A DNA stretch of 39,633 nucleotides. It comes from an uncultured Bacilli bacterium. GTDB lineage: Bacteria; Bacillota_I; Bacilli_A; RFN20; CAG-826. The stretch covers positions 1 to 39,633 of the forward strand of contig CALVXH010000005.1 of the NCBI GenBank assembly GCA_944368945.1. The letters run 5' to 3'. How positions within the stretch are numbered: position 1 is the first letter of the stretch; the number at the start of each line of letters is the position of its first letter. A program made the position numbers and the translations under genes. Below the pieces are notes generated by a model, which was given only the letters and a program-made list of their open reading frames with translations, ran no database searches and was not told the origin of the DNA. Positions 1,924 to 34,114 of this stretch are shown here, one piece after another.

Positions 1924-3748
1924 GACCTCAATGCCAAAGAACTTTTTTAAGACCTTTGCTAGATTAATAAATTATTTTGGCAAAAAGAAATATCTCTTAC
2001 TTTTAGTAATTTTACTTGTAATTTACACTTCTTTTGCAAATATTTATGGAGTTTATTATTTAGGAACTATTATTGATACTGCAATTAAAAATGAAAACAT
2101 GAATGAATTAATTATTGATGTTTTTACTTTAATTGGCATATATGGTGCTGGGGTATTTTGTGACTTCTCATATACACAAATAATGGTTAGATTATCACAA
2201 GATGTTTTATATAATTTACGTGCTGATTTATCTAGACATACACAAGATTTACCATTAACCTATTTTGACAAACACAATCATGGTGAAATAATGACATATT
2301 TCACTAACGATGTTGATACATTAATCAATGCTTTAAATGATAGTTTTGCTAATATTATCTTAAGTTTTTGTAACATTATAGGAACAATCATCTTATTATT
2401 TGTAATTAATGTTTATCTAGCTTTAATTGTTATTGTCTTTATGGCATTTATCGCTTCCTTTATTATTTGGAATACCAGAAAATGTAGAAAATACTTTACT
2501 GCTCAACAAGCTGCAATTGGTAATATTAATTCCAAAGTCGAGGAAGATATCTTAGGCGTAAAAGTCATTAAAGCATTTAACCACGAAGAAGAAAGTTATG
2601 AATCTTTTGATGATGTTAATAAAAGATGGCTTAAAGCTAGTACTTCTTCATTCTTCCATACTCAATTAAATATTCCTGTTATTGTCACAGCTTCTTATAT
2701 TGAGTTTGCTGTTGCTTGTTTAATTGGTATTTTATTCTTAGTTAATAACTGGATTTTAGGAATTGGTACTTTAACAAGTTATATCGTTGCTGTTAGACAA
2801 AGTACTCAACCATTTAACTTCTTCACTCAACATATCAATACAATTCTTACCGCATTAGCAGGTAGTGAAAGAATATTTGATTATTTAGACGTCAAAGAAG
2901 AGGAAGATAATGGGATTGTAACACTAATTAAAGTTAATGATAATAGTACTAATTATACTGATAGATATGCTTGGTCTATTCCTAATAAAAATGGAGAACC
3001 AACTATTGTTCCATTAAAAGGTGAGATTGTATTTAATCATGTTAAGTTTGGGTATGTACCAAATAAACCAGTTTTAAACGATATATCTTTTTATGCAAAA
3101 CATGGTCAAAAAATTGCATTTGTTGGTTCAACTGGTGCTGGAAAAACAACAATTATTTCATTAATTAATAGATTTTATAACATTGAAAGTGGCGAAATTC
3201 TTTATGATGGTATAAATGTCAAAGATATGAAACTTGAAAGTTTAAGAAGATCAATTTCAATGGTTACGCAAGATACTCATTTATTTACTGGTACCATTTA
3301 TGACAATATTCGTTACTCAAGATTACATTCCACAAATGAAGAGGTAATTAAAGCTAGTAAAATTGCTAATTGTGATTCATTCATTAGAATGTTACCTCAA
3401 GGATATGATACGATGCTTTATGATGATGGCCATAACTTAAGTGAAGGACAAAGACAACTTATCGCTTTAGCTCGTGCTGCTTTATCAATGCCTCCTCTAC
3501 TAATTCTAGATGAGGCTACAAGTAATATTGATACTCGTAGTGAAAAACTTGTTCAAGCATCAATGGACAAATTAATGATTGGTAGAACTGTCCTTGTTAT
3601 TGCTCATAGACTTTCAACAGTTAGAAATAGTGAAGCTATTTTATACTTGGAAAACGGTAAAATTATTGAGCGTGGTAGTAACGATGATTTATTAAAATTA
3701 AAAGGAAAATATTACGCTCTTTATAATGGCAAAACTGAATTGCAATAA
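1916..3748 (+). CDS. ABC exporter subunit 2 (TMD-NBD half-transporter, catalytic partner)
   Basis: Second half of the heterodimeric exporter, with N-terminal transmembrane segments and an ATPase domain. Walker A is GSTGAGKTT (about residue 403), the signature LSEGQRQL (about 508), Walker B LLILDEATSNID with the catalytic Glu (about 528), and the switch His VIAHRLST (about 562). The signature has Glu for the second Gly of LSGGQ, as in partners of degenerate half-transporters. So one composite site (this Walker A/B with subunit 1's VSGGQ) should hydrolyse ATP and the other should not. A linker of about 35 residues before the ATPase domain is a known feature of this class. ATG at 1916 is preceded by AGGAAG; GTG at 1910 is an alternative. 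A hairpin terminator follows. Confidence 0.93.
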   Translation: MNKTSMPKNFFKTFARLINYFGKKKYLLLLVILLVIYTSFANIYGVYYLGTIIDTAIKNENMNELIIDVFTLIGIYGAGVFCDFSYTQIMVRLSQDVLYNLRADLSRHTQDLPLTYFDKHNHGEIMTYFTNDVDTLINALNDSFANIILSFCNIIGTIILLFVINVYLALIVIVFMAFIASFIIWNTRKCRKYFTAQQAAIGNINSKVEEDILGVKVIKAFNHEEESYESFDDVNKRWLKASTSSFFHTQLNIPVIVTASYIEFAVACLIGILFLVNNWILGIGTLTSYIVAVRQSTQPFNFFTQHINTILTALAGSERIFDYLDVKEEEDNGIVTLIKVNDNSTNYTDRYAWSIPNKNGEPTIVPLKGEIVFNHVKFGYVPNKPVLNDISFYAKHGQKIAFVGSTGAGKTTIISLINRFYNIESGEILYDGINVKDMKLESLRRSISMVTQDTHLFTGTIYDNIRYSRLHSTNEEVIKASKIANCDSFIRMLPQGYDTMLYDDGHNLSEGQRQLIALARAALSMPPLLILDEATSNIDTRSEKLVQASMDKLMIGRTVLVIAHRLSTVRNSEAILYLENGKIIERGSNDDLLKLKGKYYALYNGKTELQ

Positions 3749-5704: not shown

Positions 5705-5888
5705 AATGATCTCCCTTTTCATTAATATTTTATAACCTTGAAATTAATATGGCGATAAAAATTAAATTTTCGATTTCAAACTGTAATTAAAAACTTAATT
5801 ATTTATATTTTCTTTTTAAAAAATAATTGTAATTTGCAGGAATTTTAGTTTATTTAATGCCATAACATATATCAAAAATAAATTATAT

Positions 5889-5927: not shown

Positions 5928-6003
5928 GGGGCTTTAGCTCAGTTGGGAGAGCGCTTCCATGGCATGGAAGAGGTCGTCGGTTCGATCCCGATAAGCTCCA
6001 CCA
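5928..6003 (+). tRNA. tRNA-Ala (anticodon GGC)
   Basis: A 76-base cloverleaf. The acceptor GGGGCTT pairs with AAGCTCC and includes the G3-U70 pair that defines alanine tRNAs. The D arm is AGCTCAGTTGGGAGAGC, the anticodon loop ATGGCAT gives GGC, the T arm contains GGTTCGATCCC, and CCA is encoded. Its last 16 bases form part of the 18-bp repeat that bounds the integrated element, so the gene was rebuilt intact by the element's left end. Confidence 0.95.
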
Positions 6004-6005
6004 GT
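5988..6005. repeat. attL: 18-bp direct repeat at tRNA-Ala 3' end
   Basis: CCGATAAGCTCCACCAGT is identical to 17448-17465. It covers the last 16 bases of tRNA-Ala plus two more. Weaker ungapped similarity continues for about 60 bases on the 3' side of both copies, covering a terminator hairpin and the motif AACATTTGGAAAAA. Confidence 0.9.
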
Positions 6006-6016
6006 TTGTAAAAAGT

Positions 6017-6038
6017 GCCGATTTAATCGGCTTTTTTT
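6017..6038 (+). terminator. tRNA-Ala terminator supplied by the element
   Basis: GCCGATT/AATCGGC hairpin followed by seven T. A related hairpin (17477-17491) followed by seven T occupies the same position after the right-hand repeat. Confidence 0.8.
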
Positions 6039-6435
6039 GTTTAAAATTATAACATTTGGAAAAATTTTGGAAAAAAATTTAATAATTTTTCCAAGCTCAT
6101 TAGAAACTATTTTCATATTATCTTTATTAATTCATAAGAGAAAAGGAAGGGGACTAAGAGGAAGAAAAAGAAATAGATAAAGAAAAAGATAAACAATGTT
6201 ATTCCTAAAGTCATAACATTAATATTTCAACAACAATAAAAACAAAAGTTATAATTTATAAAGCTATAACATATGTTGGGAGACATTTTTCGACCATATC
6301 TCGAACCTTGACTTTATTTTTAAATCATGTTAGAGCTCGATTTTTAATATAACTTTAAATATGTAATTTTTAGTAAAAAAAATACCTTTTTGCAGGTATT
6401 TTTTTAAAAATAATAAGTTTTATCGACTAGCTAAC
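6039..6435. other. element left end, no gene seen
   Basis: Very AT-rich sequence with no supported gene. It contains an inverted repeat (TTGGAAAAA ... TTTTTCCAA, about 6056-6094) also found beside the right repeat, a purine-rich tract near 6136-6195, and the terminator at 6375-6405. Recombinase arm-binding sites would be expected here but I cannot identify them. Confidence 0.5.
6375..6405 (-). terminator. terminator of the element's minus-strand transcript
   Basis: A stem of about 11 bp (AAAAAATACCT / AGGTATTTTTT, six-base loop) with a T-run on the minus strand lies about 30 bases beyond the stop at 6436. Confidence 0.75.
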
Positions 6436-6830: not shown

Positions 6831-7472
6831 CTAGTCAATAATCTTTCCATTAAATAACTTTGGGTCAATTCCAAGAGATAAATAATCTTCTTTCGTTAAT
6901 CCACTTTTAAAAAACTCTTTTAAATTAATATTAGAGTTCATTGTTGCTTCAATAAACGCTTTGACTGTATCTCTATCAGATCCAGATGTAAATTGTTCCA
7001 AAGTGCCTGTATATCCATAGTTTTTCAAGATAGCAAACATTCTTTTTTGCTTCATTGTAGCTGAAACTACTGCATCTGTATTTTTTTCTTTAATTGACCT
7101 CTTATAAGTCTTATTAGATCCTATAAATCTTTCAATATTTTTTAAATAATAGCTTTCTTTAGCACTGTCAAATATAACAAGATCATATTTGATAATTGCG
7201 TCTACAAATTCAGAGCAAGTTTTTTGATCCACAGATAAAATTATTTGCATTTTTTCTTCATCAATTGTAAATATCTTATTATTTTTTATTGTAGGAATCT
7301 TACCTAAATCATTAATTACATAAGTAATTAAATCTTCATATAAGCACTTCATAAAATAGCCAAGATATTTCTCTTTTTTATTATAATCGGCAATCATGCT
7401 CTTTAGTGTTCCTACTGCCAAAAAATCTAGAGTGTATTGCCAAAAGTAGTAATAATTTTTCTTACTTACCAT
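6831..7472 (-). CDS. possible replication-initiation (replisome-organizer-like) protein
   Basis: 213 residues, cytoplasmic, preceded by GAGG seven bases before ATG. Residues 1-120 resemble the winged-helix N-terminus of phage replisome organizers only in pattern: an aromatic start (YYYFWQYTLDFLAVGTLKS), a helical segment, and a short beta hairpin before SEFVDAIIKYDLVIFD. The C-terminal part (KRMFAILKNYGYTGTLEQFTSG and after) is helical. No rolling-circle HUH motif or catalytic Tyr signature is evident. It is the best candidate in the element for a replication protein, by position after the small DNA-binding gene and by this weak similarity. Confidence 0.6.
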   Translation of the reverse strand: MVSKKNYYYFWQYTLDFLAVGTLKSMIADYNKKEKYLGYFMKCLYEDLITYVINDLGKIPTIKNNKIFTIDEEKMQIILSVDQKTCSEFVDAIIKYDLVIFDSAKESYYLKNIERFIGSNKTYKRSIKEKNTDAVVSATMKQKRMFAILKNYGYTGTLEQFTSGSDRDTVKAFIEATMNSNINLKEFFKSGLTKEDYLSLGIDPKLFNGKIID

Positions 7473-7537
7473 ATAAATACCTCTATAATATTATTGATTT
7501 TGTAATTTCTTTTTAACTTTGTATAAATCTTAATCAT
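7466..7537 (-). CDS. possible 23-residue leader peptide overlapping the 213-residue gene
   Basis: A short frame MIKIYTKLKRNYKINN... has GAGG nine bases before its ATG and stops with TAA seven bases inside the next gene. Such an overlap would couple its translation to the possible replication gene, as leader peptides do in some plasmids. It is basic and unrecognised, and could be chance. Confidence 0.25.
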   Translation of the reverse strand: MIKIYTKLKRNYKINNIIEVFIW

Positions 7538-7573
7538 ACTTTAAAATCCTCTATTTATTTGATAAAATTTATA

Positions 7574-7591
7574 CATGACAATTATGTCATG
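7574..7591. promoter_or_regulatory. inverted repeat, possible operator
   Basis: CATGACA-ATTA-TGTCATG is a perfect 7-bp inverted repeat between the ribbon-helix-helix-like gene and the 213-residue gene. A second, longer imperfect hairpin (GTTAGTAGT ... ACTGCTAAC, about 7596-7633) lies beside it and may terminate the upstream gene. Either could be a target of the small DNA-binding protein. Confidence 0.4.
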
Positions 7592-7638
7592 CATAGTTAG
7601 TAGTTTATTAATGCTATAGGATGGACTGCTAACTTTTT

Positions 7639-7809
7639 TTATTTGTTTTTGTCGTCAGTTATCAACTTCTTCAAATAAGAATTAATAGACTCTTTAGACT
7701 CTAAAAATTCTATTAAATCTTTATCAGAATCATACCTTAGTTTTAATTGGAAAACACGATATGTTTTTCTACGATATTTAATTGACGCTTTCGTTTGTGC
7801 GGTACCTAT
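7639..7809 (-). CDS. small ribbon-helix-helix-like DNA-binding protein, apparent ATA start
   Basis: A 56-residue frame beginning GTAQTKASIKYRRKTYRV after the start codon and ending KKLITDDKNK. The opening K-A-S-I-K-Y plus a basic beta strand, then a helix-turn-helix-sized remainder, matches the small Arc/CopG-like proteins common in Firmicutes plasmids and mobile elements. A strong AGGAGG (7818-7823) lies eight bases before the codon ATA at 7809-7807. The only nearby ATG (7816-7814) is followed at once by TAA. So either ATA is used as start or ATG has mutated. It lies between the recombinase and the possible replication gene and may act as copy-control or excision regulator. Confidence 0.65.
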   Translation of the reverse strand: MGTAQTKASIKYRRKTYRVFQLKLRYDSDKDLIEFLESKESINSYLKKLITDDKNK

Positions 7810-7867
7810 TTTACATGCCTCCTTTCAAGTATCATTATAGGGCATGTCCTATATATTTACAATAATA

Positions 7868-8984
7868 TTATTCATTTAATTTGATTTTATTAGATATATA
7901 ATCGCCTATTTCATTTTTATTACGATCCTTATACCTAAGATAAAAATCAGCTGTTATGCTAGGCGAAGCATGACCTAGCCAATTTGAAATTCTCGTAATT
8001 TCAAAGCCGTTTTGAACTAAGAAAATAGCACAGCTATGGCGAAAATCATGTAATCTAATATGATGTAAGTGAGCTTTACTTGCAGTTGTTTCGTTCATTC
8101 TTCTAATACTAGATTCGCCAATTAAGCATTTAACATTTGTAAGATCTTTTTTATTTTTTGCATTTGAAAATACAAACTCATTAATATCATTACTTCGTCT
8201 CAAATTAATTAATAATTTTTACATCTGGAAGCAGAGGATAATATCTGTTAGAAGATTTTGTTTTTAATGAATTAATTTTTGTAATATGATCAATATTCTT
8301 GCAATTAATAGAACGTCTTATATATAAAATATCGTTATTAAAATCGATATCTTTGTACATTAGACCTCTTAATTCTCCAATTCTAAGTCCATAATAGAAT
8401 AGCAACTTAAAGATTAATATTTCTCTATTACTTTCCGCACAAGAAATAAATTTTTCAAAGTCATCAAGAGAATAATAATTCATTATTTTTCGCTCTTCAA
8501 AAATATTTTTATTTATTGTAATCAGTGATGCATTTAATTTAACGATATGATTATTATTTAAGTAATGAACAAACTCACGTGTTACATATAAAATTTTGCT
8601 TATTGATCTTTTAGATAGATTTAAATTATTAATTCTGGTAGAAATTGCAATCAAGTCCTTATTAGAAAACTTATTTATTTTTTTATTATCAAAAAATAGC
8701 ATAGTATAATTAACAAACTTTGAATAATAAGAATTGAAGGTACTATCTTTTACTCTTATTTTTAATTCGTCTAAAAAATTATTAAAAATATTTTTATTAG
8801 ATGAATTTTGCTTATCGCCATAATTTAAAAAATCTTTATTGCGATAGATATAATCCAAAGCACTTTTTTTAGTCTTAAAATAGTTTTTATTTTCGTCCAA
8901 AATAATTGTGTGATTGCAACGATGGCAATAGTTTTTAATATACCACCTTTTATATTTTGAATCATAATAAACATTTGCACCCAT
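7868..8984 (-). pseudogene. tyrosine recombinase (integrase), interrupted by one extra base
   Basis: The first frame (8984-8205) carries the N-terminal part, a SAM-like core-binding region, and the first catalytic Arg in YYGLRIGELRGL. The second frame (8203-7868) carries H-x-x-R in RLHDFRHS, the second His in WLGHAS and the nucleophile Tyr in TADFYLRYK. The frames join cleanly if one T is removed from the T5 run at 8216-8220, giving ...PDVKLLINLRRSND. All catalytic residues are therefore present and only the frame is broken. A ribosome binding site AGAGGTG precedes the ATG at 8984. It would have integrated the element into tRNA-Ala. Read-through, a sequencing error in the homopolymer, or real decay are all possible. 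Confidence 0.88.
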
Positions 8985-9005: not shown

Positions 9006-11390
9006 TTAAATTAATCTCTTTTTCTTTTTTGTATCAACAATTTTCTTTTTGTTAACATATTTAGTAAAAAATTTATAATTTTTAAATTCTTTGCCATACT
9101 TTCTTGATAAGTTTGCATATATGTCTTTCAAGGATATTTCAGGATAGCTTTTACACGCATCTTTTATTATGTCCAGATATTTATTATCATATTCACTTTC
9201 GCTTAATTCTGGATTAAAAGCTGGACATGTTTCAATATCTTTAACTAATAAAGAATTTTGTTTTTCAAAGTCTTCGAGAGTAGCATATTTTGCTCTATAA
9301 ACGCCTGAATCAAATTCACGTTTATCTTTCTTCAAAATTAAAGGTTCGAAAAATCTAAAGTAACAATCAGTAGCATAATTTCCTGCGTAAGCTTCTTTAT
9401 AGATTATGAAAAAATCTTTTACATTTTGCTCTTCATTACCACTTGTAATTATCTTCATATCAACTTTTTTGTAATTAAAATTAGATTCTATTTTTGACCT
9501 TAATAAATAAACATTATGATTTATAAAAGCATTAAATCTATTAAAAATCGAAATATAATTTCTTGTACTGATAAAAGATCTTGAAATTGTGTTTGTTGCA
9601 TTAATAAAAGCATCTAGAAATGGCTTTATTATTAGTGTATAAAATGGGAAAGAATTTTTTATTTTTTTAACAGGCTTTAATTTTATAACTGTGCCAAAAA
9701 TTTCAAGAAGATCGGCATTAATTGAGCCAATTCTTTGATCATTTGCAAACACCTTAATAAAAGGAAAATATCTTATCGTATATGTGTGTCTAATAAGCTT
9801 GATAAATTTATTATATTCATCATTTTTCTGATTAGGGAATCTATCAGATTTATCTTTTCCTGAATTAGTAAATTGATTGCCACGTTCTTTGCCAAGTTCT
9901 GATAAATCATAGATTCCGCAATCACTTAATCCTGATAATTCATCAAACCTCATTCCAAGTCTAAAAGTATCCTGATTCCAAATTTTTGAAAAATGAGATC
10001 TATCATAAAAATTTCTTGTATTGTTTTCTTTAAAAATATCAAAATCAAACGATGGAAAATATTCAGAATTTTCTCTTTTATAGCTAAGTCTTAAACTAAT
10101 ATTTGAATATACATTTGGATCTTCATTATTGAACAAATAATAAGCTTGTCCATACTCGCTTAACATATCCAAAATGGAAATTGGCTCACTACCATTAAAC
10201 AATGTATTTCTATCGTAAATAAATTTTTTAGGAAAATTATAAAGTTTTAAAAGTCTATCTATTTCACTTTCTCTTTTAACTACATCTTCTTCGTTATTGT
10301 ATAAAGCTTTTATTTTTAAAAATAATAACTTTATTTGAAGAGATAATGTTATCCATTTTTTCTTTTTTGCTTCATCGATATAGTTTTCATATTCTTTAAA
10401 ATCAAATTTATAAAAAATATTACGATAGTCTATTAATATTTCTTCTAATTTTTTCTTAAAAATACGTTGAGTTGTCATAACAGCTTGTGTGCAGAATGAA
10501 TCCTTTCCGGTGTTCATTTCTCCCACAACTAAAACTGTTACATCAGTTCTTTTTTCTATAAAATTTTCATTTTTCTTTCTTAGATTATCTATTTTCTTTT
10601 GAGCGTGCTTCCAGCATAAAATTATTAAAATTATGAAAGCCAGGAAAAGAATAATAAATGCTGGTATGCCTTTAAAAGAATAGTTTAAAGTCGAAAACAC
10701 GCTCAAAACAAAATAATAAAAGACTACAGGAATCAAAATAACATTTCCTAAAGCAAGAAAAATAAAAGCTATTATATCAATTATCAGGGCCATAATATTA
10801 AAGTAAAAAAGCACAATCATTAATAACACTATAAAATAAAATCTATGTTCTTTGTTGTATTTAAAATACTCTTTAAAAAAATTCTTAATTTTTAATAATT
10901 TGGTGTTTGAAAACTTTTCGAATCGCAATAACCCTTTAGTTTTACTAACTAGTCCTGGATCTTTTTTTGTTTGTGTTGATAAGGAAACTAACACAACACT
11001 CATTATTACTATAATAATTGCAAAAATTATTACATTTAAATAAAGAGTTACATTGTAAATAAAATCAATTTTTAAAATAAAATAATCATAATTAAAAATT
11101 GTCAAAAATTCAGCTTTTAAATATTCAATAACATTATTAAAATTTGATGGTAAAAATTTTATTCCAAAGTTGTTTGTATAGCAATATTCCCACGTTATAA
11201 ATTTTGGAGTTGGATGTAAGCCAATTAAGCATGCAAAATAATATATTATTGAATTAAAAAGAAAATACAGAGAGTATACAATACGAATATACGCTTCATA
11301 TTTTAAGCTCGTTAGCAATATAAACATAAATAATATCAGAATGATATTTATTTGTGCGATTCTATTAAATTTTAACTTATTTATTTTCAT
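9006..11390 (-). CDS. large multispan membrane P-loop ATPase, candidate Zot/pI-like assembly protein
   Basis: 794 residues. About six hydrophobic segments lie within residues 10-270, then a cytoplasmic domain with P-loop VVGEMNTGKDS near residue 290. Further conserved-looking blocks follow: GIYDLSELGKERGNQ (about 480-495) and FPFIKVFANDQR (about 540-550). The order P-loop, GKERGNQ-like block, then DQR block recalls Zot/pI-type ATPases of Gram-positive filamentous phages, from memory of the family. In classical pI the membrane segment comes after the ATPase, so here the layout is reversed and the protein about twice as long. It overlaps the upstream membrane gene by 14 bases and is the last gene of the exported-protein operon. 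A conjugation-type ATPase is the alternative, but no partner genes are seen. Confidence 0.7.
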   Translation of the reverse strand: MKINKLKFNRIAQINIILILFMFILLTSLKYEAYIRIVYSLYFLFNSIIYYFACLIGLHPTPKFITWEYCYTNNFGIKFLPSNFNNVIEYLKAEFLTIFNYDYFILKIDFIYNVTLYLNVIIFAIIIVIMSVVLVSLSTQTKKDPGLVSKTKGLLRFEKFSNTKLLKIKNFFKEYFKYNKEHRFYFIVLLMIVLFYFNIMALIIDIIAFIFLALGNVILIPVVFYYFVLSVFSTLNYSFKGIPAFIILFLAFIILIILCWKHAQKKIDNLRKKNENFIEKRTDVTVLVVGEMNTGKDSFCTQAVMTTQRIFKKKLEEILIDYRNIFYKFDFKEYENYIDEAKKKKWITLSLQIKLLFLKIKALYNNEEDVVKRESEIDRLLKLYNFPKKFIYDRNTLFNGSEPISILDMLSEYGQAYYLFNNEDPNVYSNISLRLSYKRENSEYFPSFDFDIFKENNTRNFYDRSHFSKIWNQDTFRLGMRFDELSGLSDCGIYDLSELGKERGNQFTNSGKDKSDRFPNQKNDEYNKFIKLIRHTYTIRYFPFIKVFANDQRIGSINADLLEIFGTVIKLKPVKKIKNSFPFYTLIIKPFLDAFINATNTISRSFISTRNYISIFNRFNAFINHNVYLLRSKIESNFNYKKVDMKIITSGNEEQNVKDFFIIYKEAYAGNYATDCYFRFFEPLILKKDKREFDSGVYRAKYATLEDFEKQNSLLVKDIETCPAFNPELSESEYDNKYLDIIKDACKSYPEISLKDIYANLSRKYGKEFKNYKFFTKYVNKKKIVDTKKKKRLI

Positions 11391-11750: not shown

Positions 11751-13661
11751 TTACTTTCCTTTAATTAGCTTAATTATAAATTTAATCAGTTTTACAAGTA
11801 GTCCTATAATAAATGCAATAACTATCAAACCTAAAATAATCATAATTGCTTTAACTATTGGATTGTTTAACAAATCATTAAAAAAATTGCTAGCATCATT
11901 AATAAAATAATCATATAAAGTTGGCGCCGCATATCCTGAGAATGAAATATATGACAAATATGTAGGATCACCTAGGCAATTAAATGTTATTTTTTGACCA
12001 TTATTTTGTCTTGCAGTAGCTTGCAAAATTGTTGCACCATAAATTTCATGGCAAGTTGTAACTCTTTTAATTAAGGATTCGTACTGATTATAAGTATCAC
12101 TTTGATGCGATGAGTAAACATTTATTACGCCATCATCAACCACAGTTCGTTTACAGTATTCATCACTATTAGCCCCGTCAATCATGATTGCAAATTGATA
12201 ATCTTCTTTACAGGAGTCAAAAAATTCTCTACTTAATTTAAAATCATCAGAATTATATTCTTGATTATAGGTATTTAGATTAACAATTGGTTCAAAAGTA
12301 TATTCTCTTAAATAAGGATAATGGCCCCACGCAGAGCTTAAGTTATTTTCTTGTTTGTAAGTATAATTTTCTTTATCGTAATCAGAATATATTGTCTTTT
12401 TATATAATTCACCATTATTAAGCACTTTAAAATTTTGAAAACCGTTATAAAGAGAATTTAGATCAGGATTATAGTAGTGTCTTACGATGGATCCTGATTG
12501 TTCATCTTTTTTTACTCCTGAATTATCGGTTAACGACTCATAATTATCATAATTTAAGTTAAGTGTTTCTGTTGTTCCCTCTGCTGAGAAAATTTTTACA
12601 TCTTCGTTATAATCAATTAAATTTGTTCTTTTGCCGTTTGCTGAGACTCCCTGACTTAAATTTCCTAAATCAGATTCATATAAACCGCAATAAATATCAC
12701 CATAAGAATCTGATTTGTCCTCATGATAAGTCCATATAATTGATTCTTCTGTTGATGAAACTGGTGCATATCTAACATATTCATATTGTGCTTTTAAATA
12801 TTGAACATTGACAGAAATAAGATCTGAGAGATCTAACCTATCATCAAATTTTACTAATAAATACGTTAATTCTTGAGCTTCTTTTACGGTAGTATCTTTA
12901 GCAGTCTCACCATAAGAAAAACCAAAAATTTTAGGGAAATAATCCTCTGCTTCAAGTACTCCTAAACACATAACTAATTTTGCTTCATAAGTATATGTAT
13001 TGTTTTCAAAGTAATAAAAATTACCATCAAGCCAGTCAGTACCTTTTGGATAAATTAATTCAGGTTCTTCATCAATCGCAAATAATCTCTTAGTACCATC
13101 AGCATTTAAAAATTCAAAATTATATAACTTTGCCCTTAATACATCACCATCTGCAATAGAACTATAATCACTTCTAACATTTTTTAAAACAAACTTATAA
13201 AAATAGTTATTTTTATAATAATAGTAATTAAGCTTATCGCCAGCATTAGTTAAAGCTATAATTTTTGTCCCATTAACATATTCATTTTTATCTACATCAA
13301 AATTTGTAGAAAAATCAATTGTCGTATACAAAGTTTGATTATCAATTAAATAGTTTGTTGAAAAATAAAAATATAAATCATTATTGTTAGGCTTCATTGC
13401 AAGAAATTTAAAAGCTTCATTTTCTGCTAATAAGCAATCATCAAAGTTATAATTTAAATATTCGTAAGATGAAATTTTTCCATCGCTATCCTTGTCGCCA
13501 AACAACAATCTCAAATCATAGCTCACATTTACTTTATTAAAGTCAATTGTAGTATTAAGCGTTGGCGCATTTTCCATTGCAAAAATAGCACCCTGTTTTA
13601 AGACTGGTTGAGCGTTCATTAAGCAAAATAGAGTTGTTAAAGCGTTAAGAATCTTTATCAT
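11751..13661 (-). CDS. secreted, C-terminally anchored surface protein with EF-hand loop (candidate adsorption protein)
   Basis: 636 residues. A signal peptide (IKILNALTTLFCLMNAQPVL, then a likely cleavage near AIFA) leads a long Asn/Tyr/Asp-rich extracellular region. One membrane segment follows near 600-625 (IMIILGLIVIAFIIGLLV), then a short basic cytoplasmic tail (KLIKFIIKLIKGK). Near residues 55-68 is a complete EF-hand calcium loop, DKDSDGKISSYE, with ligands at 1, 3, 5, 7, 9 and 12 and Gly at 6. Topology (signal peptide, large ectodomain, C-terminal anchor) matches filamentous phage adsorption protein III. It overlaps the lipoprotein gene by four bases (ATGA). No LPXTG motif is present. 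Confidence 0.75.
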   Translation of the reverse strand: MIKILNALTTLFCLMNAQPVLKQGAIFAMENAPTLNTTIDFNKVNVSYDLRLLFGDKDSDGKISSYEYLNYNFDDCLLAENEAFKFLAMKPNNNDLYFYFSTNYLIDNQTLYTTIDFSTNFDVDKNEYVNGTKIIALTNAGDKLNYYYYKNNYFYKFVLKNVRSDYSSIADGDVLRAKLYNFEFLNADGTKRLFAIDEEPELIYPKGTDWLDGNFYYFENNTYTYEAKLVMCLGVLEAEDYFPKIFGFSYGETAKDTTVKEAQELTYLLVKFDDRLDLSDLISVNVQYLKAQYEYVRYAPVSSTEESIIWTYHEDKSDSYGDIYCGLYESDLGNLSQGVSANGKRTNLIDYNEDVKIFSAEGTTETLNLNYDNYESLTDNSGVKKDEQSGSIVRHYYNPDLNSLYNGFQNFKVLNNGELYKKTIYSDYDKENYTYKQENNLSSAWGHYPYLREYTFEPIVNLNTYNQEYNSDDFKLSREFFDSCKEDYQFAIMIDGANSDEYCKRTVVDDGVINVYSSHQSDTYNQYESLIKRVTTCHEIYGATILQATARQNNGQKITFNCLGDPTYLSYISFSGYAAPTLYDYFINDASNFFNDLLNNPIVKAIMIILGLIVIAFIIGLLVKLIKFIIKLIKGK

Positions 13662-14275
13662 AATGATTCCTCATATTTACCTGTCAAAGGATTGAAAAAA
13701 TATATTTTTTCACAATAAATTCTCGCATGCGTATATTGAGGTTGCTTTCTTTCGTTGTCTTCTGGAGTTGTACTGATTGTCGAAAAAAAGTAATAACCAG
13801 ATTCAGCTAATGATGTACGAAGAGTAATATATGTACCATCTTCAATTTGCCCATAAGAAAAAAAGACATCTAATTTATTTCCATCAGAAAAATAATCATC
13901 TATATTTTCATAATTTGTTAGATTTTGAAAAATATTTGAAACATCGTAAAAGGTTAAAACATTGCCATTATCGTCTGTAATTGTATCGTCTATTTTGACT
14001 AAAGGACTTTCAGTCAAATTTATCGCCTTATCATAATTAGAATAATTATCAGTATCATAATTTTCATTGCTTGAATAGAAATGTAAGTACATGACATTTT
14101 CAAATTTACCAGCAACATCACTTTCAATAGTTGGATAACTTCCAATCAATAATTTTGTATGATCAATTTCACTTGTTTTTTTAACGAACGAAAAGGAGGA
14201 GGAGCAACTAGTTAATAGCATAGTTGCTCCCGCAATAAGAATATAAAAACTAAAATTTTTAAAGCTTTTTCTCAT
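13658..14275 (-). CDS. exported lipoprotein of the element
   Basis: 205 residues. The N-terminal signal has a basic start (MRKSFKNFSF), a hydrophobic core and the lipobox LTSC, so Cys would be lipidated and the protein held on the outer face of the membrane. The mature part begins with Ser-rich sequence and is rich in Asp, Tyr and Ser; I do not recognise a domain. Its ATG shares a base with the stop of the 54-residue gene (TAATG) and its end overlaps the next gene by four bases, showing tight translational coupling. A lipoprotein may alter the host surface, for example to block superinfection, but that is a guess. Confidence 0.75.
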   Translation of the reverse strand: MRKSFKNFSFYILIAGATMLLTSCSSSFSFVKKTSEIDHTKLLIGSYPTIESDVAGKFENVMYLHFYSSNENYDTDNYSNYDKAINLTESPLVKIDDTITDDNGNVLTFYDVSNIFQNLTNYENIDDYFSDGNKLDVFFSYGQIEDGTYITLRTSLAESGYYFFSTISTTPEDNERKQPQYTHARIYCEKIYFFNPLTGKYEESL

Positions 14276-14447: not shown

Positions 14448-15653
14448 TCACTCAAAGATAATATTAGATTCATCTAAAGTTATTTCAGAAACAAATGTGT
14501 TGTCAACCATTAATCCAAAAGTAAAATCATATGTTTTACCACATTGATTTCTTGTAATGTCTAAAATTGGTATATATGTTCCGACAGAAGCGCTTGGTGC
14601 ATAAGTGTCGAGCATAGTTTTTACTTCGTCTGCAGCATAGGCTAGATCCATTTCAATTCTATCCCCAGCAACATAGTCTGGATCAATGTATGAAAGCCAT
14701 TCGCCAATTGCTTCAGCGTTTTCAGCAGATAAATAACTACTATCCCATTTTGCTGTAAATGTTGCATCTGTAGATCCTGAATAATCAACAGTACCTTCGC
14801 TATAATTTATTTGACCTGTCAAAACTTCAGAAAGGGTGATTGAATTTATAAAATTTTCATATAAAGAACTTGTGTTTAAATACATTCTTTTCTGTGATTC
14901 ATCAAACTTTACAGACTTATCGCTTCCAGCCGCAGACGTGTCTAAAGCATCTGCATTAAAAGTAACATCGACTGAGTTAACTATCTTTCTACAATCAACA
15001 GTACATGAAGCTGATAAGTTAGTTCCATCTTTGGTTGTAGCAGTTACCTTAATTTGTTTTGAAAAACGTTGTGCCATTCTTATAGTTGCTTCTTTTCCAG
15101 ATGGAGTTAAAGTAACATAATCAGTTACTGTCTTCCCGCTTGCCCATCCACTACTGTCGATAAAAGCAATACTCCAATCAAGTTCTTGGTTGGTTGCTGT
15201 TGCAGGTTCTATTGTAGCAATTAGTTTATATTCTGTAGCATTTACTTTTTGCATTTGAATCTGGTGTAAATTAGATGCAGCAAGCTCTGAATCACTTGAT
15301 TCTACAATTGTCAAAGTTGCAGTATAATCTTTTGTCTTGTCGTTAACTTTAACTTTTACTTCGTAAGTATATGTTCCAACATTGACACATTCGTTAACTA
15401 CTTCACCGTTAGAATTTTTAATTACGACTTCGTATGTAGCTCCATCAGGGACAATTATTTCAAGTTCCTTCTTTGCGCCATCATACTCAAAGGATTTTGA
15501 CTCAATTTTTACATCTTTGAAATCAGGGTCTACTTGAGTAAACCATCCTTGTTCATTGCCATAAAATCCAATAGTTCCGGCAACTCCGGCAACAGCTAAA
15601 ATTGCAATTGCTGACGCTAATACTACGACTACTTTGTTACTTTTCTTTTTCAT
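14448..15653 (-). CDS. membrane-anchored extracellular protein with Ig-like domains
   Basis: 401 residues. The start ATG at 15653 has GAGGTGG six bases upstream, so I prefer it to the ATG at 15677, which has none. An uncleaved-looking N-terminal membrane segment (VVVVLASAIAILAVAGVAGTI) leads the ectodomain. Residues about 45-125 look like an MBG-type beta domain (FEYDGAKKELEIIVPDGATY). Residues about 130-225 resemble a BIg2 bacterial Ig-like domain (IEPATATNQELDWS ... KVTATTKDGTNLSASCTV). The rest is unassigned and ends SEITLDESNIIFE. It is the first gene of the operon, next to the non-coding region, and presumably the most expressed. A surface or virion-tip role is plausible. Confidence 0.75.
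   Translation of the reverse strand: MKKKSNKVVVVLASAIAILAVAGVAGTIGFYGNEQGWFTQVDPDFKDVKIESKSFEYDGAKKELEIIVPDGATYEVVIKNSNGEVVNECVNVGTYTYEVKVKVNDKTKDYTATLTIVESSDSELAASNLHQIQMQKVNATEYKLIATIEPATATNQELDWSIAFIDSSGWASGKTVTDYVTLTPSGKEATIRMAQRFSKQIKVTATTKDGTNLSASCTVDCRKIVNSVDVTFNADALDTSAAGSDKSVKFDESQKRMYLNTSSLYENFINSITLSEVLTGQINYSEGTVDYSGSTDATFTAKWDSSYLSAENAEAIGEWLSYIDPDYVAGDRIEMDLAYAADEVKTMLDTYAPSASVGTYIPILDITRNQCGKTYDFTFGLMVDNTFVSEITLDESNIIFE
14469..14487. repeat. 19-bp direct repeat, copy 2 (shared C-terminal tail)
   Basis: Second copy of the repeat at 14296-14314, 173 bp away, inside the end of the 401-residue gene. Confidence 0.9.
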
Positions 15654-15718
15654 GTTGTCCACCTCTATAAAAACCATTTCTGGTTAAAAACGATCACGGG
15701 CGCGCCAATTGTCAGTCA

Positions 15719-15779
15719 TTTAATTAAAGCATTGTTTTAGCAATTAAACTTAATCCGCTTAATTAATGCTTTAATTAAA
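15719..15779. repeat. 15-bp perfect inverted repeat
   Basis: TTTAATTAAAGCATT (15719-15733) and AATGCTTTAATTAAA (15765-15779) are exact reverse complements around a 31-base spacer. Confidence 0.85.
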
Positions 15780-15842
15780 CTCCGCGCACACTACGCTTTA
15801 CTAGTGCGCTCAATTATTAACTAAAACCTTAATTAAAGTGGA

Positions 15843-15864
15843 CTACATACATATATGTATGTAG
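15843..15864. repeat. 22-bp perfect palindrome
   Basis: The half-site CTACATACATA is followed at once by its exact reverse complement. It could be a strong operator for a dimeric regulator or a cruciform element of an origin. Confidence 0.85.
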
Positions 15865-16050
15865 GACAATTAAGGATTTAATTAATGAATGATGACGTTA
15901 AGGCGAGCTGTCGGCTATCGATTCCAGTAAAGCCAGCCCATAAACTGTCCTGGATCGTCCTTGAATAGTTTTTTAAGCAAATTTGCTCCAAGGAAGCCTT
16001 TTTGCTCTTCTCTAGGGGTACGAAGATTAAATTGCCTTAAACACTAAGAA

Positions 16051-16072
16051 TTGAACTAGATATTAGTTTCAA
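16051..16072. promoter_or_regulatory. inverted repeat upstream of XRE cluster, possible operator
   Basis: TTGAACTA and TAGTTTCAA form a near-perfect inverted repeat (one-base bulge, five-base spacer) 69 bases before the first XRE frame. It is a good size for binding by a dimeric XRE repressor. Confidence 0.4.
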
Positions 16073-16140
16073 GATTCTCGAAGTTTACAATTATAAAATA
16101 CAATTATCATGAATTATTCGCAATATTTTTTTCAAGTTCC

Positions 16141-16455
16141 GTGAAATTATTTTATTATCAAATTGTGTTCAATGAAGTTTTAAAAAAGTTATTAGAAAGC
16201 AAAAAAGTAACGCAAAGATCTTTGGCAAAAAACTTAAATTTAGCTGAATCAACAGTGAGTGGATATGTCAGCGGAACAAGTGAGCCTGATTTTGATACGC
16301 TTAAAAAAATAGCAAATTTTTTTAATGTATCAGTTAGTATTTTTTTTGATGAACCAAATAATTTAAATATCGAAATGAACCATGATGACTATAATTTAAT
16401 CGACTATCATCAACGAGAAATTCAACGAATATTAGCTAAATATAAGCATGACTAA
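16141..16455 (+). CDS. XRE-family HTH regulator 1
   Basis: Up to 104 residues from GTG. The helix-turn-helix region (VTQRSLAKNLNLAESTVSGY, then PDFDTLKKIANFFNVSVSIFF) is classical. The C-terminal helix (DYHQREIQRILAKY) follows the pattern L-x3-Q-x2-I-x2-I-x2-KY shared with the next two genes. The start is uncertain: GTG at 16141 and GTG at 16165 are possible, and neither has a clear ribosome binding site. First of four tandem XRE genes, divergent from the structural operon, and a likely repressor of it. Confidence 0.8.
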   Translation: MKLFYYQIVFNEVLKKLLESKKVTQRSLAKNLNLAESTVSGYVSGTSEPDFDTLKKIANFFNVSVSIFFDEPNNLNIEMNHDDYNLIDYHQREIQRILAKYKHD

Positions 16456-16458
16456 AGT

Positions 16459-16740
16459 ATGAAAAATAAAATCAAAGAAATTGCAAAACAAAAAAATATT
16501 ACACTCAAAGATATAAGCAAAAATTTAAATATTTCTTATAGGAGCTTGCAAAGATATTCTGCTGGAACACGTGAACCTAATTATAAAACAATTGTCGATA
16601 TAGCAAATTATTTGAATGTCACTGTAGATGAGCTTTTAAATGTTGAGAACAAAAAACTCATTTCTATTTCGCTGAAAGATTTTAACGAGCTAAAAGCAAT
16701 TCAAAAAAGGATAAATGAAATTTTTAAAAAATATGAATAG
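16459..16740 (+). CDS. XRE-family HTH regulator 2
   Basis: 93 residues, starting three bases after the previous stop. The HTH (ITLKDISKNLNISYRSLQRY, then PNYKTIVDIANYLNVTVDELL) is complete, and the C-terminal helix KAIQKRINEIFKKYE matches the tail pattern of regulators 1 and 3. No clear ribosome binding site is seen, so translation probably couples to gene 1. Its recognition helix differs from those of its neighbours, so each paralogue probably prefers a different operator. Confidence 0.85.
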   Translation: MKNKIKEIAKQKNITLKDISKNLNISYRSLQRYSAGTREPNYKTIVDIANYLNVTVDELLNVENKKLISISLKDFNELKAIQKRINEIFKKYE

Positions 16741-16779
16741 AATTCAAAGCTTCATGCCAAAATTCTTAAGGTGGTTTAA

Positions 16780-17097
16780 ATGAAAATCTATTTAAAGCAG
16801 CGCATCCATGAAAATGGTTTTACTCTAAAAGAAATCGCTAAAAAATTAAACATTCAATATGCGACTCTTTCAAATCGGGCTCGTGGCGTTCATGAACCTG
16901 ATTATAAGGCGTTATATGATATTTCTAAAATTTTGCATATTCCAATGGATTATTTTTTTGTTTCAGTAATTGAGTCAAAAAATTTGTTAATTTCAGATGA
17001 AGACAAAGAAGCTCTTGCGTTTCATCAAAAAGCGATTAACAAAATATACAAAAAATATGGTCTGCTCGATTCTAAGAGGAAACACAATGAAAAATAA
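16780..17097 (+). CDS. XRE-family HTH regulator 3
   Basis: 105 residues with a good ribosome binding site (AAGGTGG six bases before ATG). HTH FTLKEIAKKLNIQYATLSNR followed by PDYKALYDISKILHIPMDYFF. The C-terminal helix AFHQKAINKIYKKYG shares the tail pattern of regulators 1 and 2, pointing to tandem duplication. The gene overlaps the next by 11 bases. Confidence 0.88.
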   Translation: MKIYLKQRIHENGFTLKEIAKKLNIQYATLSNRARGVHEPDYKALYDISKILHIPMDYFFVSVIESKNLLISDEDKEALAFHQKAINKIYKKYGLLDSKRKHNEK

Positions 17098-17365
17098 TCT
17101 TAAGCATTTAAGAAAGACTCATAATTTAACTCAAAAAGAAGTCGCTAAAATTTTAGGAATAAGTCAACAACAATACAGCTCATATGAATTATCAAATACT
17201 TTTATTACAATCGACAAAGCTTTAATACTTGCTGATTTTTATGATGTTACCTTAGATTTTTTAGTTAAGAGAAGAGTAAAAAGAAACAATATTGAACGAA
17301 TAAAAGATATCGAATCTAATTTAAAAATTATTAGGACAAATTTAGAAAAAAATAAAATTTTATAA
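17087..17365 (+). CDS. XRE-family HTH regulator 4
   Basis: 92 residues from the ATG at 17087, which has AGAGGA six bases upstream; a longer upstream frame is not needed. The HTH LTQKEVAKILGISQQQYSSY is the classical Cro/CI type, followed by ITIDKALILADFYDVTLDFLV. The C-terminal tail (DIESNLKIIRTNLEK) differs from that of regulators 1-3, so this is the more distant member. It is the last gene of the element before the right repeat. Confidence 0.88.
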   Translation: MKNNLKHLRKTHNLTQKEVAKILGISQQQYSSYELSNTFITIDKALILADFYDVTLDFLVKRRVKRNNIERIKDIESNLKIIRTNLEKNKIL

Positions 17366-17447: not shown

Positions 17448-17465
17448 CCGATAAGCTCCACCAGT
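17448..17465. repeat. attR: 18-bp direct repeat
   Basis: Identical to 5988-6005. It is a remnant of the tRNA-Ala 3' end left at the right junction. Confidence 0.9.
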
Positions 17466-17476
17466 GAAAAAATATA

Positions 17477-17498
17477 GTCGATTATATCGGCTTTTTTT
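17477..17498 (+). terminator. original tRNA-Ala terminator (right junction)
   Basis: GTCGAT/ATCGGC hairpin (one G-U pair) followed by seven T, at the same distance from the repeat as the terminator at 6017-6038. It is probably the pre-integration terminator. Confidence 0.7.
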
Positions 17499-17595
17499 AT
17501 TTTTTGATTTAACATTTGGAAAAAATTTTTAGTTTTTTTCCAACACTATCTTTTTTACATATTTTAAAAATTCATTTATAGTTTATAATAAAAAT

Positions 17596-31827: not shown

Positions 31828-31857
31828 ATTATAACATTTACAATAATAGCATTTCAA
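31828..31857 (-). promoter_or_regulatory. sigma-A promoter of rpsB-tsf
   Basis: On the minus strand TTGAAA (31857-31852), 18 bases, then TATAAT (31833-31828). It partly follows the 3' end of xerC. Confidence 0.75.
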
Positions 31858-31859
31858 TA

Positions 31860-31918
31860 GTTATTTATTTTGTCCCTAATCTTTACTGTGGTTATTTATT
31901 TTGTCCCTAATCTTTACT
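31860..31918. repeat. 31-bp tandem duplication at the end of xerC
   Basis: 28 bases starting GTTATTTATTTTGTCCCTAA at 31860 are repeated exactly from 31891, a period of 31. The second copy contains the last codons and stop of xerC; the first copies this end, just upstream of the rpsB promoter. Confidence 0.9.
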
Positions 31919-32845
31919 TTTATCTTCATTCACATTCTCAGGAAAAAATAAATCATATTGATTTTTTATTCCTTCTTTAGAAATATGAGTATAGATTTGA
32001 GTTGTGTTAATTGACTCATGTCCTAATAGTTCTTGAATCATTCTTAAATCTGCGCCATTCTCTAATAATTTTGTTGCAAATGTATGTCTTAGTACGTGTG
32101 GATGCAAATTAATACCTAAGTCTAAACCTGTTTTTTTAATAATATTTTTAAAGATATATTCAAGTCCTCTGGAGGTTAATTTCTTTCCTTTGTTATTCAA
32201 AAATAAAAATAGTGAATGTGTGTTATTTATTTTTTCTAATTCGCTTCTAGTATTTTTAGCATAAGATAAAATTGCCATTTTCGCTTTTAAAGAAAATACT
32301 ACAATTCTTTCCTTTTTACCCTTGCCAAAAATTCTTATAGTTTGAGAATTAAAATTAATGTCACTAATTTTTAAATTAACAAGTTCAGAACACCTTAATC
32401 CACTTGTAAACATTAATAATAAAATCGCTTGATCTCTTTCATGTAAGAAATCAGTACGTTTGTCATTTTCTTCTAGTAATTTAATGGTTTGTTTTTCATA
32501 TAATACTTCTGGATTTTTAGCTTTTACTTTAGGAAAGGTGATTAATAAAAAAGGATTATGCTCAATTGATTTAATTTTTACTAAATAGTTATAAAACTTT
32601 TTTAAAGAAGATAATCTACGGCAAATCGTTCTTTTTGTTTCATAACTTCCTCTATAAGTCTTATGTTGTGCTCTATTTGAAATAAATTTTCTAATTATTT
32701 CTGCATCTATATTTAAAGGATCTACTTTTTTAAATTCTAAAAAGTCTAAAAAGAGATTAATATCTATTTTATAAGAGATAATTGTATTCTCACTATAATT
32801 TAAATCAAATTTTAAATAGTTTAAAAAGTCATCTAAATAGTTCAT
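31907..32845 (-). CDS. xerC: site-specific tyrosine recombinase XerC
   Basis: 312 residues. An N-terminal SAM-like domain (YSENTIISYKIDINLFLDFL) is followed by the catalytic domain with Arg in TSGLRCSELVNL, H-x-x-R in HPHVLRHTFATKL, His in LLGHES and nucleophile Tyr in TTQIYTHIS. It resolves chromosome dimers at dif. The place after trmFO matches Bacillus codV (xerC). The start abuts the trmFO stop. It is not related to the element's recombinase beyond the fold. Downstream hslVU-codY are absent. Confidence 0.93.
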   Translation of the reverse strand: MNYLDDFLNYLKFDLNYSENTIISYKIDINLFLDFLEFKKVDPLNIDAEIIRKFISNRAQHKTYRGSYETKRTICRRLSSLKKFYNYLVKIKSIEHNPFLLITFPKVKAKNPEVLYEKQTIKLLEENDKRTDFLHERDQAILLLMFTSGLRCSELVNLKISDINFNSQTIRIFGKGKKERIVVFSLKAKMAILSYAKNTRSELEKINNTHSLFLFLNNKGKKLTSRGLEYIFKNIIKKTGLDLGINLHPHVLRHTFATKLLENGADLRMIQELLGHESINTTQIYTHISKEGIKNQYDLFFPENVNEDKSKD

Positions 32846-34114
32846 CTATTGATTTTTAAATTCCTCAATGGCATCTAAAGCTCTTTTAATTACTACATCT
32901 TTAGAATCTTTATTTGCTCTATATACGATTCCAAAATTAGCATTCATTGGCGAAAAATTATTTATTCCGGTATGAGTAATATATCTTACTAAAGAGCCTA
33001 ATACTGAATAAAATGATAATTGTTTAATATTTTTATTTTTTAATAAAAAATCAATGTAATAGCCAACTAACAAACCCGTTGCAGCACTTTCAACATATCC
33101 TTCTACTCCTGAAAGTTGACCTGCTATAAAAATATTTTTATTGTTTTTTAATCTTAAAAAATCATCAAGAACTTTTGGTGCATAAATATATGAATTTCTA
33201 TGCATTAAACCATATCTAACAAACTTTGCATTTTCTAATCCTGGAATTAAAGAAAATACTCTTTTTTGTTCAGGATAAGTTAAGTTTGTTTGAAAACCAA
33301 CAATATTATAGAAATTGCCAATTAAATCATCTTGTCTTAACTGAACAACCGCATAATAACTTTCACCATTATTTTCTAATCCGACTGGTTTTAATGGTCC
33401 ATATCTTAAGGTATCAACTCCTCTAGAAGCAATCACTTCAATTGGCAAACAACCTTCAAAATAATTAGTATCAAAAGAATGTAATGGGGCTTTTTTGGCG
33501 TTAATTAATTCATTATAAAATTTAAGATATTCTTCTTTATTCATTGGACAATCTATATAAGAGTCGTCACCTTGATTATATCTAGATTTAAAAAATACTT
33601 TATCTAAATTAATTGAATCTTTTTCAACAATTGGCGCACTAGCATCAAAAAATCCATAGGATTTTTGCCCACTTATTTCATTAATTTTATCTAGTAAAGT
33701 TGCTTCAGTTAAAGGACCTGTACAAATGACATTTATCCCTTCTTTAAAATCGTTGACATCTTCATAAAAAATTTTAATGTTTTTATTTTCCTTTATTTTA
33801 TTAGTGATATAAGATGCAAAAACTGTTCTATCTACTGCTAAGCTATCACCACTAGGAACTTTACTAACTTCACTTGCTTCCATCATTATAGAACCAAGAT
33901 GTTTAATCTCTTCTTTTAATAGTCCGCAAGCATTATCAAGTTTTTTGTTTTTTAAAGAATTAGAGCAAACTAGTTCTCCAAATAAATCTGTATGATGTGC
34001 AGGGCTTGTATACTTTGGTCTTTTTTCATATAAGTTAACTTCATAACCTTTATTTGCTAAATAGTTTGCACATTCACAACCAGCTAAGCCAGCACCAATA
34101 ATATTAATCTTCAT
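32846..34114 (-). CDS. trmFO: folate-dependent tRNA (uracil-54) methyltransferase
   Basis: 422 residues. FAD-binding IIGAGLAGCECANYLANKGY at the N-terminus, followed by KRPKYTSPAHHTDLFGELVCSNS, and a C-terminal FIAGQLSGVEGYVESAATGL. It makes ribothymidine at tRNA position 54 with methylene-THF and FADH2, the Gram-positive alternative to TrmA. It overlaps topA by 11 bases and abuts xerC. Confidence 0.96.
   Translation of the reverse strand: MKINIIGAGLAGCECANYLANKGYEVNLYEKRPKYTSPAHHTDLFGELVCSNSLKNKKLDNACGLLKEEIKHLGSIMMEASEVSKVPSGDSLAVDRTVFASYITNKIKENKNIKIFYEDVNDFKEGINVICTGPLTEATLLDKINEISGQKSYGFFDASAPIVEKDSINLDKVFFKSRYNQGDDSYIDCPMNKEEYLKFYNELINAKKAPLHSFDTNYFEGCLPIEVIASRGVDTLRYGPLKPVGLENNGESYYAVVQLRQDDLIGNFYNIVGFQTNLTYPEQKRVFSLIPGLENAKFVRYGLMHRNSYIYAPKVLDDFLRLKNNKNIFIAGQLSGVEGYVESAATGLLVGYYIDFLLKNKNIKQLSFYSVLGSLVRYITHTGINNFSPMNANFGIVYRANKDSKDVVIKRALDAIEEFKNQ

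Follow-up and report, generated by a model that had tools for sequence, protein, structure and literature searches.

A conserved, hairpin-rich intergenic region as a candidate replication or packaging region of a tRNA-integrated element in an uncultured Bacilli bacterium

The stretch of DNA analysed here, called the window throughout, comprises 39,633 nucleotides from an uncultured Bacilli bacterium and contains a prophage-like element of 11.46 kb (11,460 bp) bounded by repeats at a tRNA-Ala gene. The attL-side repeat (5988–6068) starts inside the 3′ end of this gene (5928–6003) and forms with the attR-side repeat (17448–17528) an 81-nt direct repeat of 78% identity, of which the initial 18 bases are identical. 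Between the repeats the minus strand carries a broken tyrosine integrase, p130, p213, p794, p121, p636, p205 and p409. The first gene of the minus-strand operon is p409 (14448–15677), coding for a membrane-anchored protein whose likelier ATG start lies at 15653, past a ribosome-binding site. Judged by eye, p205 (13658–14275, minus strand) is lipoprotein-like and p636 (11751–13661, minus strand) combines a signal-peptide-like N terminus with a membrane stretch at the C terminus. The marker of the family is p794 (9006–11390, minus strand), a membrane P-loop ATPase with a Walker-A-like motif; its AlphaFold model is of low pLDDT (49). Weak matches describe p213 (6831–7472, minus strand) as winged-helix-like and make it a candidate replication or regulatory protein; a core of this type also appears in its structure model, which is of low confidence (pLDDT 57.6) and reaches a Foldseek E of 0.03 at best. 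The tyrosine integrase (7868–8984, minus strand) is interrupted near 8205 (about 8203–8207), as might be seen with a dead copy, frameshifting or an assembly error. On the plus strand, four Cro/C1-type helix-turn-helix (HTH) genes (16141–17365) diverge from p409, and the gap between the two is the intergenic region (IGR) considered below. Its position between divergent operons had been correctly recognised in an earlier sequence-only reading of this DNA.

That reading had described 15654–16140 as a dense cluster of palindromes in a GC-richer island and proposed it as an origin or packaging signal. Most of the individual features are indeed present. Five copies of TTAATTAA are found at 15720, 15759, 15771, 15829 and 15878, out of a total of 15 in the 39.6-kb window, where any 490-bp stretch holds at most five; shuffled versions of the 487-bp segment contain 0.12 copies on average with a maximum of three, and five were reached in 0 of 2000 shuffles. 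A 21-nt direct repeat is present in three copies. The inverted repeat has arms of 23 nt (15719–15741/15757–15779, 87% complementary), the 22-bp palindrome CTACATACATATATGTATGTAG at 15843 is perfect, and the GCGCAC/GTGCGC hairpin occupies 15784–15809. On the other hand, a 13-bp repeat with a 37-bp period could not be recovered, no pair matching at 11 or more of 13 positions, and GGCGCGCC, although present at 15699, is missing at the corresponding place in the copy of the only close relative found (genome G009, see below). The GC-richer island amounts to a modest rise, with 34.1% in the segment against 22–36% across the 1-kb bins of the window. The constrained block is also offset from the limits given for the cluster: conservation spans about 15640–16045 and does not extend over 16046–16140, where differences affect 46 of the 89 aligned bases. 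The sign of the GC skew switches at the IGR, but this is uninformative with respect to an origin because gene direction switches there too.

The hairpin structure of the IGR is non-random. Among 395 windows of 200 nt across the whole sequence, 15701–15900 folds most strongly (DNA-fold z −6.3), surpassing even the windows containing tRNAs. For the segment as a whole the DNA-fold z is −5.14 on the plus and −5.21 on the minus strand, and none of 100 shuffles was as good on either strand, so that the shuffled controls fold worse throughout. A small hairpin, H0 (15672–15685; 5 bp, 4-nt loop), lies directly upstream of the p409 ribosome-binding site within a stretch (15640–15689) that is identical in both genomes, its loop reading GAAA on the mRNA strand. 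It is followed by H1 (15719–15779), a long imperfect stem composed of TTAATTAA-type units, H2 (15784–15809) with the GCGCAC/GTGCGC stem, and H3 (15810–15892), which carries the perfect palindrome (15843–15864) at its tip. The right half (15893–16042) has no significant structure in the window, with fold z between −0.3 and −1.6, and yet it is conserved (18 of 146 aligned bases differ over 15895–16045); it may be protein-binding or leader sequence. The second non-coding stretch of the element (7473–7867) is less structured than the IGR and contains a likely small ORF.

The element of G009, which lies on two contigs, C34 (L007) and C16 (L024), has kept this structure. Its IGR shares 86% identity with that of the window over about 400 bp, whereas fourfold sites in seven gene pairs are 38–59% identical (16–159 sites per gene), so that constraint on the IGR is far above that on neighbouring silent sites. 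The proteins of the element, at 69–83% identity, are likewise far over their silent sites. Folded alone, the G009 IGR yields the same hairpins (z −5.7); H1, H2 and H3 are each predicted independently in the two copies, H2 with its outermost pair now a mismatch. Within the hairpin region 11 of 126 stem bases differ, compared with 11 of 59 unpaired bases, and in the left spacer (15690–15718) 13 of 28. The fold is preserved with few compensatory changes: 55 of 63 hairpin pairs are unchanged, three are altered on both sides and kept, and five are broken as aligned, including one at the palindrome apex beside an indel. The eight changed pairs thus include three both-sided Watson–Crick changes and no G–T intermediate. 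H3 shows a compensatory change in its palindrome between the window and G009. The count of three was made by script; reading the palindrome apex by hand would give a fourth, which is left out of the count. Changes also affect several of the TTAATTAA copies in G009, yet the stems are kept. Covariation is thin since the IGR is known from two sequences only: at high score it occurs in 2 of the 279 genomes of the order, the window's and G009.

The ATPase is far more widespread. Within the genus, 10 of the 26 genomes have relatives of p794, and by profile the family extends to 35 of the 279 genomes of the order; neither Pfam nor PHROGs identifies the protein. In contrast, close matches to p636 are confined to 2 of the 279 genomes, two others having distant ones, and p213 is found by sequence in 2 of 279, with a candidate in G020 at 26% identity. 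Related elements encode either Rep_trans adjoining the ATPase gene or a Rep of the REP_ORF2-G2P type, and two of the latter also have an rve integrase. Using a Rep model built from seven of these proteins, a Rep_trans-type match was detected in 27 of 49 ATPase-bearing sources, a set that includes the window and in which many entries duplicate one place or are truncated pieces of it. No rolling-circle Rep was recognised in the window element, and Rep_trans (PF02486) has no match in the window's own genome. Searches of IMG/VR with p636, p794, the p794 profile, p409 and two IGR patterns found nothing, nor did searches of phage and plasmid records with the IGR DNA; against 17 related or comparison loci the best IGR match had an E of 0.006 over 23 bp. 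Searches of the titles and opening abstract lines of open-licence papers on inoviruses or prophages in this kind of host turned up no description of this family. A diverged second member sits on a short contig of the window's own genome (G000:C76, L026), where the profile match contains one TAG. Another lies at about 31846–33162 of MT835493.1 (L042), a 57-kb record from human faeces that is titled ‘Bacteriophage sp.’, carries no annotation and may in fact be a bacterial contig.

The window element is thus kin to rolling-circle elements, four of which have a cruciform near rep. Five loci without Rep_trans beside the ATPase were examined, and the common shape described here is that of single folds. 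The cruciform was folded in four G2P-type members (L097 4930–5010, L098 1410–1490, L099 12805–12890 and L042 12565–12650) and not seen in the fifth locus, L095. It lies on the downstream side of the G2P-type Rep, which was scanned as a protein in L098, L099 and L042 and is similar by eye in L097. Its parts are an outer stem, an inner hairpin and, on the 3′ side, an unpaired bulge containing most of an invariant CACTTGTT. A rolling-circle nick site would be expected to look like this, with a stem, an inner hairpin and an unpaired bulge word. The outer stems differ among the four loci, least between L097 and L098, and RNAalifold detected no covarying pair in the four cruciforms because the differing stems stayed unaligned to each other. 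The cruciform with CACTTGTT is likely to be the rolling-circle origin of these elements and a candidate nick site. Its occurrence near rep makes DNA-level cruciform origins credible within the family. The IGR of the window differs from it in both structure and place; the conserved block contains no CACTTGTT and the IGR no ACTTGTTT, and we have rejected the idea that it is the same cruciform.

Taking these data together, we infer with moderate confidence that the conserved non-coding block (15690–16045; 86% identity to G009:C34) is a DNA-level replication or packaging region of the window subtype. The tRNA-integrated element would be inovirus-like, that is ssDNA-phage-like, with the IGR as its cis-acting DNA region. 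It would presumably pass through an ssDNA stage, and after excision the three hairpins and the conserved, unpaired sequence that adjoins them on the right could act as origin of replication and/or packaging signal. The DNA form would be the functional one, and its putative reader would be a protein encoded by the element, for which p213 is a candidate, or host factors. The proposal of the sequence-only reading is partly supported. The two checks that it had set, on shuffled controls and on conserved structure in related elements (here one close relative), both turned out in its favour, and the family context suits an ssDNA-phage-like replicon; a role in initiation or packaging would be a further step, for which the subtype offers no recognisable Rep and the conserved block no DnaA box. 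Indeed, we have counted against an origin that the element encodes no recognisable nickase. A DnaA-type origin was discarded since the conserved block lacks a box, the sole candidate (TTATTCGCA at 16114, one mismatch) being situated outside it. In other family members a fold scan that took in non-coding parts showed weaker structure upstream of the structural genes: the best windows, at L030 15901, L033 9361 and L098 8801, have z values between −4.6 and −4.8. This speaks against a packaging signal common to the whole family. It is conceivable, if rather speculative, that the inovirus-like lineage exchanged a lost nickase and cruciform origin for a p213 winged-helix initiator and the three-hairpin region, replication modules being swapped within the family.

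The main rival explanation is that the block represents a structured 5′ leader of about 400 nt in the p409 operon mRNA, controlling translation or transcription as RNA. The constrained block is continuous with p409 rather than with the HTH genes, the stretch comprising its ribosome-binding site and H0 is invariant, and promoter-like sites on the minus strand (16106–16183) lie upstream of the entire block. The minus-strand RNA, corresponding to the sense of the p409 mRNA, folds with a z of −4.5; however, the complementary RNA folds better (z −6.7). Changes of the G–U type, as would be tolerated in an RNA stem, are absent among the eight changed pairs, the promoter matches are at chance level (three found against 2.4 expected), and no Rfam family comes near its curated threshold, for which reason a known Rfam RNA was also dropped as a candidate. 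A leader thus appears possible but distinctly less probable than a function at the DNA level.

We consider it unlikely that the Cro/C1-type repressors use the TTAATTAA units as an operator array in lysogeny control, with the hairpins as a by-product of inverted operators. The location between the repressor genes and the p409 operon would suit such an array, as would the three-copy 21-nt repeat and the 72% identity of the HTH gene h2 to its G009 counterpart. However, the 95 bp adjoining the HTH operon are precisely those that are not conserved, the right half of the IGR is conserved though devoid of TTAATTAA, and in G009 stems persist where several TTAATTAA copies have been altered. In the window, four consecutive Cro/C1-type HTH genes make up one control region, and two of them are kept in G009.

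That the structure is due to chance or is a remnant in a decaying element seems very improbable: the broken integrase frame in the window and the lack of Rep_trans in the genome would agree with decay, but the fold has been preserved at 86% identity against 38–59% at fourfold sites, the proteins are constrained well over their silent sites and the G009 integrase is intact, a single frame of 369 aa.

Several other candidates were set aside. An attachment site was ruled out, as the repeats sit at the tRNA; the G009 element adjoins a tRNA-Thr and not a tRNA-Ala at its left end, and the integrases share 44% and 49% in their two parts, being much more diverged than most other proteins, which makes a role of the IGR in integration unlikely. 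Frames tried by eye for a hidden coding region in the right half are broken by single-base indels between the window and G009. Weak DNA matches of the IGR in G202, G270, G072 and G089 (E 2e-4 to 8e-4) were taken as chance because their available flanks are without element proteins. Next to the G009 element, a TnpB-like protein was noticed by eye (L007, 4467–5729).

Returning to the replication or packaging region, the element could plausibly work like an inovirus or like a member of the Plasmaviridae; membership would follow from neither comparison. With Inoviridae/Tubulavirales (Roux et al. 2019, PMC6813254) it shares the small integrated format, a membrane P-loop ATPase and a hairpin-rich intergenic region, to which some relatives add a Rep of the G2P type and an integrase of the rve type. 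On the other hand, the family ATPase does not match Zot (PF05707), the Pfam model finding neither p794 nor its relatives nor anything else in the window's genome; no small major coat protein was identified among the listed ORFs of at least 60 aa, the window subtype lacks a Rep and its operon encodes several large anchored proteins. Acholeplasma virus L2 of the Plasmaviridae (PMC12662186; NC_001447) resembles the element in its size of about 12 kb, AT-richness, integrase and tRNA integration, and has no annotated Rep. The origins annotated for L2 lie within or close to intergenic regions, and one is rich in hairpins. However, the L2 origins contain DnaA boxes (PMC12662186), which the window block does not, and all L2 genes are on one strand. 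In our fold scan of L2 the hairpin-rich annotated origin (window at 3701) ranks second of 120; the strongest structure (z −8.2), in the window at 5801, belongs to no annotated origin, and the second origin is unremarkable. The family ATPase HMM matched none of 72 L2 frames at E 10. Those relatives in which Rep_trans is encoded beside the ATPase gene resemble the rolling-circle plasmids and integrative elements that carry this protein; the window's own genome has no such match.

A further resemblance concerns CGTCCTTGAATAGT (15956–15969, plus strand), which agrees at 12 of 14 positions with a stretch of the M13 intergenic region that we take to be the pII nick site, and which is one base shorter in G009. 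The motif was chosen after inspection and compared with the M13 intergenic stretch (NC_003287), and since three matches of 12/14 occur in the whole window against 0.70 expected, the likeness may serve as a lead only.

These findings point to an uncultured bacterial order harbouring a family of integrated elements, possibly ssDNA-phage-like, whose marker ATPase goes unrecognised by Pfam and PHROGs. Within the window subtype, it is the conserved IGR that is most likely to reveal how replication proceeds without a known Rep, and the cruciform of the four relatives provides a direct comparison for it as well as a testable nick site.

A separate observation relates to the second non-coding stretch, in which a 56-codon frame on the minus strand (7639–7809), DNA-binding-like by eye, begins with an ATA 8 bases past a strong Shine–Dalgarno sequence. 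An ATA is also found at the equivalent place in G009, on the minus strand of L024, where the frame runs downward from about 2115. It is possible that AUA is used here as a start codon, overlooked by standard ORF lists.
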